Shown in pieces: positions 21,722 through 23,116 of a stretch of 64,000 nt of DNA. The stretch comes from Ferruginibacter sp. (GTDB lineage Bacteria; Bacteroidota; Bacteroidia; Chitinophagales; Chitinophagaceae). The stretch's first letter is position 1. Every line of letters starts with the position of its first letter. The position numbers were made by a program, and so were the translations under genes. The notes below the pieces were generated by a model. That model saw only the letters and a program-made list of their open reading frames with translations, was not told where the DNA came from and searched no databases. Location of the stretch: assembly GCA_013141115.1 (NCBI GenBank), contig JABFRP010000002.1, positions 980,647-1,044,646 on the forward strand, read 5' to 3'.

Positions 21722-22132
21722 TTAAAATGCTTTTTTATCTCCTTTAAAAACCTGGTAAACGGTTAAAAATAAAATCTGTATATCCAGCCATAAACTCCAG
21801 TTTTCTAAGTACCACAAGTCTTTATTAATTCTCATTCTTATCTGTTCCGGATTGGTAATTTCTCCTCTGTAACCATTTACTTGTGCCCAGCCGGTAATAC
21901 CGGGTTTTAAAAACTGGCGTACCATGTAATCATCTACCAATTTCGAATAATCAGTAGTATGCTTTAGCATGTGTGGCCTTGGGCCAACCAGGCTCATTTC
22001 GCCTTTAAACACATTTAAAAATTGCGGAAATTCATCAAGGCTGGTTTTTCTGATAAACTTTCCAATTTTAGTTACCCGGGCATCGTTTCTTGTGGCTTGT
22101 TTTAAATCGGCATCTTTATTATTAGATTGCAT
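21722..22132 (-). CDS. C-terminal catalytic fragment of the interrupted sugar transferase
   Basis: A 136-residue reading frame begins at the ATG seven codons after the stop, itself part of the conserved FRSM motif. It holds the catalytic TSLDEFPQF dyad, GEMSLVGPRPH and GITGWAQVNG. The frame is intact, so reinitiation at this ATG could make a catalytic piece without its membrane anchor. Confidence 0.55.
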   Translation of the reverse strand: MQSNNKDADLKQATRNDARVTKIGKFIRKTSLDEFPQFLNVFKGEMSLVGPRPHMLKHTTDYSKLVDDYMVRQFLKPGITGWAQVNGYRGEITNPEQIRMRINKDLWYLENWSLWLDIQILFLTVYQVFKGDKKAF

Positions 22133-22150
22133 GCTTCTGAACTTGTAACA

Positions 22151-23116
22151 TTAAAACGGTTTTTTATTTTTTCCGGTACGCAATTGTTTAAAGAATATTG
22201 GCCCTTTAGATTCCAACAATATCAACAACCCTAATAGCGGTATCAGCCATGAAAGAATAAATACAATAACTAAAAAACTTACTACAATATCCAGAACTCT
22301 TTTTTTAATTCTATTTCCCACATCATCCAAAGGATCGCTACGCAGCGATAAAATGGGCAGTTCGCCAAAATATTCTATATGCACATCCCTTGTTATAAAT
22401 ACAGAAAGGTTAGGTACAATTTTAAATTTGATACATTCTTTTTCCGACTGGTACATCAGTTCATAAATGTCGTTATTCTGTTCCGGCGTTATGGTTGAAT
22501 ATATTTCTGCCACATCAAATTCTTTTGCAACATGCAATGCCTTGCTAACGTCAGTTATTATTGGATAATGCGATAACTCGTGTACATTTTTATCATCTTC
22601 AATAAATCCTAATAATTGTGTGTTGATGCCATCTTCTTCAAAATATTTTGCCAGTTTTTTTGCAGTATCGTTGTAACCAAGTATAATTACTTTTTTAATT
22701 AAGTAATGGCTGTTTTTAAAGTACTTTTTTATACCCAGGTACAAAAACCTGTTTCCCATCAGGCCAAGGCCAAAGCCAATCATGCTGGAAATAATAAACC
22801 CCCTTGATATCCTGTACTCTCTTGATAAAAAAAGATAGAACAATACAAAAATGATCCACAGTAAATAAACCTGTGTGGTTCTTTTTGTAAAATGCTCAAA
22901 ATTTAAAATTGTTTTACCGGCATAATTTCTAAGAAAAAAGGAAAGTAATAACCATGAGCCAACGGATATGGTCCAGTATTGAAAGTAAACGCTCCAATAA
23001 TTTACGGGTATACTTTTTGTTAGTACTACTTTACAAAAAAAGTACACCATTGTTATTGCAAACAAATCCAGCACCACAAGGGTCATTTGTAAATATCGTT
23101 CAAACTGCCGGTTCAT
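22151..23116 (-). CDS. N-terminal fragment of the interrupted sugar transferase
   Basis: This is the 321-residue product if translation stops at the in-frame TAA. It retains the N-terminal membrane domain, the CoA-binding_3-like domain and the membrane re-entrant segment of the catalytic domain (KKRVLDIVVSF followed by a hydrophobic stretch). It lacks the Asp-Glu catalytic dyad and the GPRP motif, so alone it should be inactive. Confidence 0.6.
   Translation of the reverse strand: MNRQFERYLQMTLVVLDLFAITMVYFFCKVVLTKSIPVNYWSVYFQYWTISVGSWLLLSFFLRNYAGKTILNFEHFTKRTTQVYLLWIIFVLFYLFLSREYRISRGFIISSMIGFGLGLMGNRFLYLGIKKYFKNSHYLIKKVIILGYNDTAKKLAKYFEEDGINTQLLGFIEDDKNVHELSHYPIITDVSKALHVAKEFDVAEIYSTITPEQNNDIYELMYQSEKECIKFKIVPNLSVFITRDVHIEYFGELPILSLRSDPLDDVGNRIKKRVLDIVVSFLVIVFILSWLIPLLGLLILLESKGPIFFKQLRTGKNKKPF

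Follow-up and report, generated by a model that had tools for sequence, protein, structure and literature searches.

An in-frame stop codon interrupts the predicted initiating sugar transferase gene of a Ferruginibacter polysaccharide locus

The window considered here, the whole 64,000-nucleotide stretch of DNA that was analysed, comes from a Ferruginibacter genome of 5.44 Mb in five contigs (96.9% complete) and contains a minus-strand polysaccharide locus of about 37 kb (3590..40763). The locus encodes a Wza-like export protein, a Wzc-like kinase, a Wzx-like flippase, many glycosyltransferases and nucleotide-sugar enzymes, the last including a GDP-mannose dehydratase, a WecB epimerase and a nucleotide-sugar dehydrogenase with weaker matches to UDP-ManNAc dehydrogenase. 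It holds one PF02397 gene, the only one in the window. On the same strand, this gene is preceded by an open gene for a WecG/TagA/CpsF-family glycosyltransferase (23158..23943) and followed by an open gene for an MBOAT O-acyltransferase (20239..21663); at locus L196, an intact transferase gene is flanked by the same WecG-family transferase and MBOAT genes in the same order. A scan for promoters and terminators found 10 and 1, respectively, against shuffle means of 12.8 and 2.0. Adjoining the locus, on the plus strand at 310-3480, is a gene for a 1056-residue protein with ten matches to PF22352 (PKD-like) and a C-terminal sorting domain.

The frame of the transferase gene runs on the minus strand from 23116 to 21722 and comprises 465 codons, one of them an internal TAA. 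The 5' piece (22151..23116) begins with ATG, ends in the premature TAA and encodes 321 amino acids: an N-terminal membrane region, with helices assigned by homology, PF13727, and the beginning of PF02397 with the predicted re-entrant-helix region. The 3' piece (21722..22150, minus strand) continues in the same frame for 142 sense codons to a normal TAA at 21724-21722 and carries the remainder of PF02397, the T-S-L-D-E motif and the C-terminus. An earlier, sequence-only reading had placed a TAA inside the catalytic domain, between the re-entrant helix and the Asp-Glu dyad, with the frame open beyond it and no indel involved. Our analysis agrees on each point. The stop, at 22153-22151 (22151..22153, minus strand), lies within PF02397, and the TSLDE stretch with the dyad is downstream of it, outside the 321-residue product. 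Four intact relatives align with the gene over residues 1-463 in a single frame. No frameshift, which by that reading would have made the gene a plain pseudogene, is thus seen, and the TAA is the sole interruption; as far as the assembled sequence goes, it is real.

Profile searches recover one protein family across the break. TIGR03023, the model for WcaJ-type undecaprenyl-phosphate glucose phosphotransferases, is matched in order by the two pieces (model positions 2-311, then 319-452), as is PF02397 (positions 1-49, then 57-179). The succession of PF13727 and PF02397 is that of a large monotopic phosphoglycosyl transferase, and it is present in the frame, across the stop. Scored separately, the pieces reach 153.1 and 239.3 bits against a TIGR03023 cut-off of 410.75, which the best-scoring intact relative (P0001) passes with 425.7 bits. 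Where a WcaJ protein is encoded by one continuous reading frame, the frame here is broken inside PF02397. WbaP structures (8t53, 9s7s and others) align with P0001 through F-x-C-x-KFRSM and TSLDE, and each matched chain covers, unbroken, the regions of both pieces of the present gene. An AlphaFold model of P0001, built with 13 sequences, has a mean pLDDT of 48.5, falls below 50 throughout the C-terminal part that begins at residue 235, and was set aside. From these family matches we predict that the gene belongs to the WcaJ-type initiating sugar transferases, and it is the only one of that type found in the genome.

The stop had been described as replacing a residue of a conserved motif. This holds for the flanking phenylalanine and cysteine, which are invariant in 37 orthologues, and fails for the stop column itself, where the same orthologues have six different residues. 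Ranked by entropy over 193 columns, which start 50 upstream of the stop and run to the C-terminus, it comes 12th. In favour of a nonsense mutation, one substitution would turn into a stop the residue that occupies the column in 8 of the 37 orthologues, and in 94 of 118 readable protein hits (120 listed, two unreadable). Against it, a different residue is the commonest among the orthologues (15 of 37), and of the three nearest relatives compared as DNA, two have the former residue at the column and the third does not.

The stop is not shared by the relatives that we compared. It is absent from all 37 aligned orthologues and from all 52 other genomes of the genus with a close relative of the gene; these 53 genomes, the present one included, are those among 93 searched that match the C-terminal piece at 66% identity or more. 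In all 52 the frame is open, at 463-506 codons, so that the pattern expected of a pseudogene, open orthologues beside a private interrupting change, is found throughout the genus set. Among 110 motif rows, which represent 106 of 115 loci (nine gave no row), the only ones with a stop are the two copies of the present gene. We also considered whether the stop might be shared and hence functional, and rejected this for the relatives compared: at least twelve genus rows were flagged as containing a stop, and each of the twelve listed, once fetched, proved to end in its normal terminal stop.

The named records with the closest relatives of the transferase are those of Ferruginibacter, Ginsengibacter, and unclassified Bacteroidota or Chitinophagales, with best listed identities of 91% over the 5' piece and 95% over the 3' piece. 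No copy from the same species, truncated or otherwise, was recognised among the best 120 of 1802 matches to the 5' piece. One of the relatives (P0053; 317 residues, 87% identical) lies on a 1.7-kb contig and ends four residues short of the place of the stop. This is likely a contig end; it could itself be a stop, and the stop is thus private only with respect to the genomes compared. A second protein from the same 120 matches (P0004, 382 residues) also looks cut: beyond EMSL it no longer follows the family sequence, in the way that a frameshift would produce.

If the break were old, relaxed constraint would be expected downstream of it, and only an old break carries that expectation. No relaxation was seen: for the part after the stop, comparison with each of the three nearest relatives compared as DNA gives pN/pS values of 0.092-0.109, within the 0.072-0.122 found among those relatives themselves. 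Because synonymous sites are near or at saturation, this is a coarse measure, and the stop can be called recent only in comparison with that split. Codons under normal constraint imply that the stop is recent, is read past, or is wrong. The values are as expected for a recent stop, and they fit a gene that is read past, or an error in the base call, equally well.

An error in the assembly is the main rival to a real stop. In this case a wrong base call, or a consensus drawn from a mixed population, would have introduced the TAA into a gene that is intact in the cells. Such an error would account for a stop that is present in one assembly only, is absent from the compared neighbours and is followed by normally constrained codons, and one substitution would be enough to create it. 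Against this, comparison of 12 other genes of the locus with their relatives revealed no stop or frameshift in the aligned stretches, which suggests that local sequence quality is good, although a single wrong base is still compatible with this result. The comparison used matches above 45% identity, with one gene matched through a paralogue and three hits to stop-containing antisense shadow ORFs set aside; between 25308 and 40763, the assessment of most genes used only their open frame and their Pfam matches. Frameshifting or wider decay of the locus was likewise not seen in the 12 genes. Overall, we consider an error unlikely.

A genome-wide tendency to broken genes is likewise not apparent. 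In a 521-kb sample we counted 491 coding-like stops, of which 83 are followed by at least 40 open codons. The sample takes in the window and the three loci of other transferases discussed below, and is therefore not random. When the ten top-scoring candidate breaks among the 83 were examined, the transferase stop was the only one recognised as splitting a gene; six others are gene boundaries according to Pfam and one according to the ORF list, and the remaining two, L201 12056 and window position 49427, are still candidates. There is thus no obvious excess of broken genes in the sample as judged from those ten, which argues against a poor assembly, with the same reservation that one wrong base would still be compatible. 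The candidate break at 49427 follows a stretch of 120 open codons on the plus strand (window 49067-49426) that has a strong coding-like score and lies just before an ORF at 49457. No Pfam family was found in this stretch, which could represent either a small intact gene or part of a broken one.

The constraint on the downstream codons could instead mean that the stop is bypassed, either by read-through or by reinitiation at a downstream methionine, after which the two pieces would have to associate as an active enzyme. Many residues are tolerated at the stop column, the downstream frame is under constraint, and an in-frame ATG lies seven codons past the stop, from which reinitiation would yield a hypothetical product of 136 amino acids (21722..22132, minus strand). 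However, the stop occurs in no relative compared, and UAA followed by U, the context at this position, is a strong terminator. A search for tRNA genes, in which 150 of 382 first-look candidates were scored, gave 53 RF00005 hits and no UUA anticodon that would allow suppression: none occurs among the 51 hits called by ARAGORN, and by eye, from sequence and fold, the other two are a tRNA with UGG and a remnant that lacks the T arm, with GUU by position. Read-through, one of the outcomes proposed earlier, thus finds no support, and suppression by a tRNA was rejected within this set of hits. Nor does the ATG, which had been proposed as a point of reinitiation, count as evidence for it. The methionine is invariant in the 37 orthologues regardless of the stop, so that its position is not an adaptation to it. 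We regard bypass in either form as very improbable.

It may be noted separately that, among 120 relatives listed for the C-terminal piece (P0121-P0240), 71 are exactly 135 residues long and begin with a methionine that is apparently that of FRSM. These proteins are likely a product of contig ends; a conserved internal start is an alternative, and some of them sit on contigs of 29-44 kb.

One form of bypass would be a split phosphoglycosyl transferase, in which the 321-residue membrane piece and a reinitiated 136-residue Asp-Glu piece together would form an active initiator and termination-reinitiation would set the level of polymer initiation. The monotopic core has one re-entrant membrane helix and the Asp-Glu dyad, as described in the available part of PMC10942596, and the C-terminal domain of WcaJ alone is active in E. 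coli, according to the available part of PMC4361858. The active truncation described there, E252-Y464, keeps the C-terminal domain, whereas the break here lies inside that domain. To us, a split enzyme of this kind seems extremely improbable.

The stop may also be real while another transferase of the genome starts the polymer, in which case the locus works and the gene is dispensable. The sequence-only reading had raised this possibility and proposed a search for a second intact homologue. Three other intact PF02397 proteins, of 465, 218 and 399 residues, were indeed found, all encoded outside the window, and a WecA-like PF00953 protein is also present. Their TIGR03023 scores are 326.9, 149.2 and 170.7 bits, respectively, so that none reaches the WcaJ cut-off of 410.75. 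The gene for the 465-residue protein adjoins that of an oxidoreductase; a similar transferase occurs in the same genome as a WcaJ-type gene, at a different place, in 8 of 12 relatives fetched, and for this reason it looks like a separate enzyme. The 218-residue transferase sits among glycan genes of its own, near those for DegT, PglD-like and GT4 proteins. In the 399-residue transferase (L193 8722-9921; G000:C1 near 1901722-1902921), a receiver-like N-terminus, with a PF00072 score of 29.6 bits that is just below the cut-off of 30.2, is joined to PF02397; the available part of PMC12802240 mentions that small monotopic transferases with receiver domains have been reported.

The WecA-like protein is a possible alternative initiator. 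Its gene lies outside the window (L176 1279-2409; G000:C1 near 557540), and it scores 149.3 bits against a TIGR02380 cut-off of 326.05. In enteric bacteria, WecB, UDP-ManNAc dehydrogenase and WecG-type enzymes act on the product of WecA, and the present locus encodes a WecB epimerase, a nucleotide-sugar dehydrogenase and a WecG-family transferase. The genome also encodes MraY. It is probably other glycans that these transferases serve; at most they might bypass the block in part, and we think it quite improbable that one of them has replaced the interrupted gene.

We consider it probable that a recent nonsense mutation arose in the only WcaJ-type gene found in this genome, which would leave the enzyme inactive and switch off the 37-kb pathway where it begins. 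What we observed is the TAA itself, a frame that is open apart from it, uninterrupted frames in the relatives and no stops in the neighbours compared. From these observations we infer that the cells do carry the stop, that neither piece is active and that the pathway does not run. Termination would yield the 321-residue protein with membrane region, PF13727 and re-entrant-helix part. Lacking the Asp-Glu dyad, this product would, we propose, leave undecaprenyl phosphate uncharged for the polymer of the locus. Loss at this step would leave no half-built lipid-linked intermediates, and the first step would hence be the cheapest to lose.

This cost argument comes from another organism, and the present case is a single one. 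In Klebsiella, pseudogenes are distributed according to the sequence of steps in capsule synthesis: they are commonest in wbaP or wcaJ, and glycosyltransferase genes come next (PMC8259999, available part). Loss of wza or wzy there leads to envelope defects, and resistance to bile salts returns when wcaJ is lost along with wzy (PMC7317392, available part). The Klebsiella wcaJ and wbaP pseudogenes resemble the present one in that the first-step gene of a Wzx/Wzy-type locus is broken while the compared neighbours are open. They differ in that, as far as the available part of PMC8259999 describes them, they are known from many genomes and from laboratory-evolved non-capsulated clones, whereas we have one case from the Bacteroidota, which by analogy fits the first-step pattern.

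The change is most likely an ordinary loss of function, with nothing mechanistically new. If real, it would show that a polysaccharide locus of the Bacteroidota, too, can be lost through its initiating gene, the one most often broken according to the Klebsiella pattern, and would add a single case to that pattern. It also serves as a warning that a locus that looks complete may be silent.
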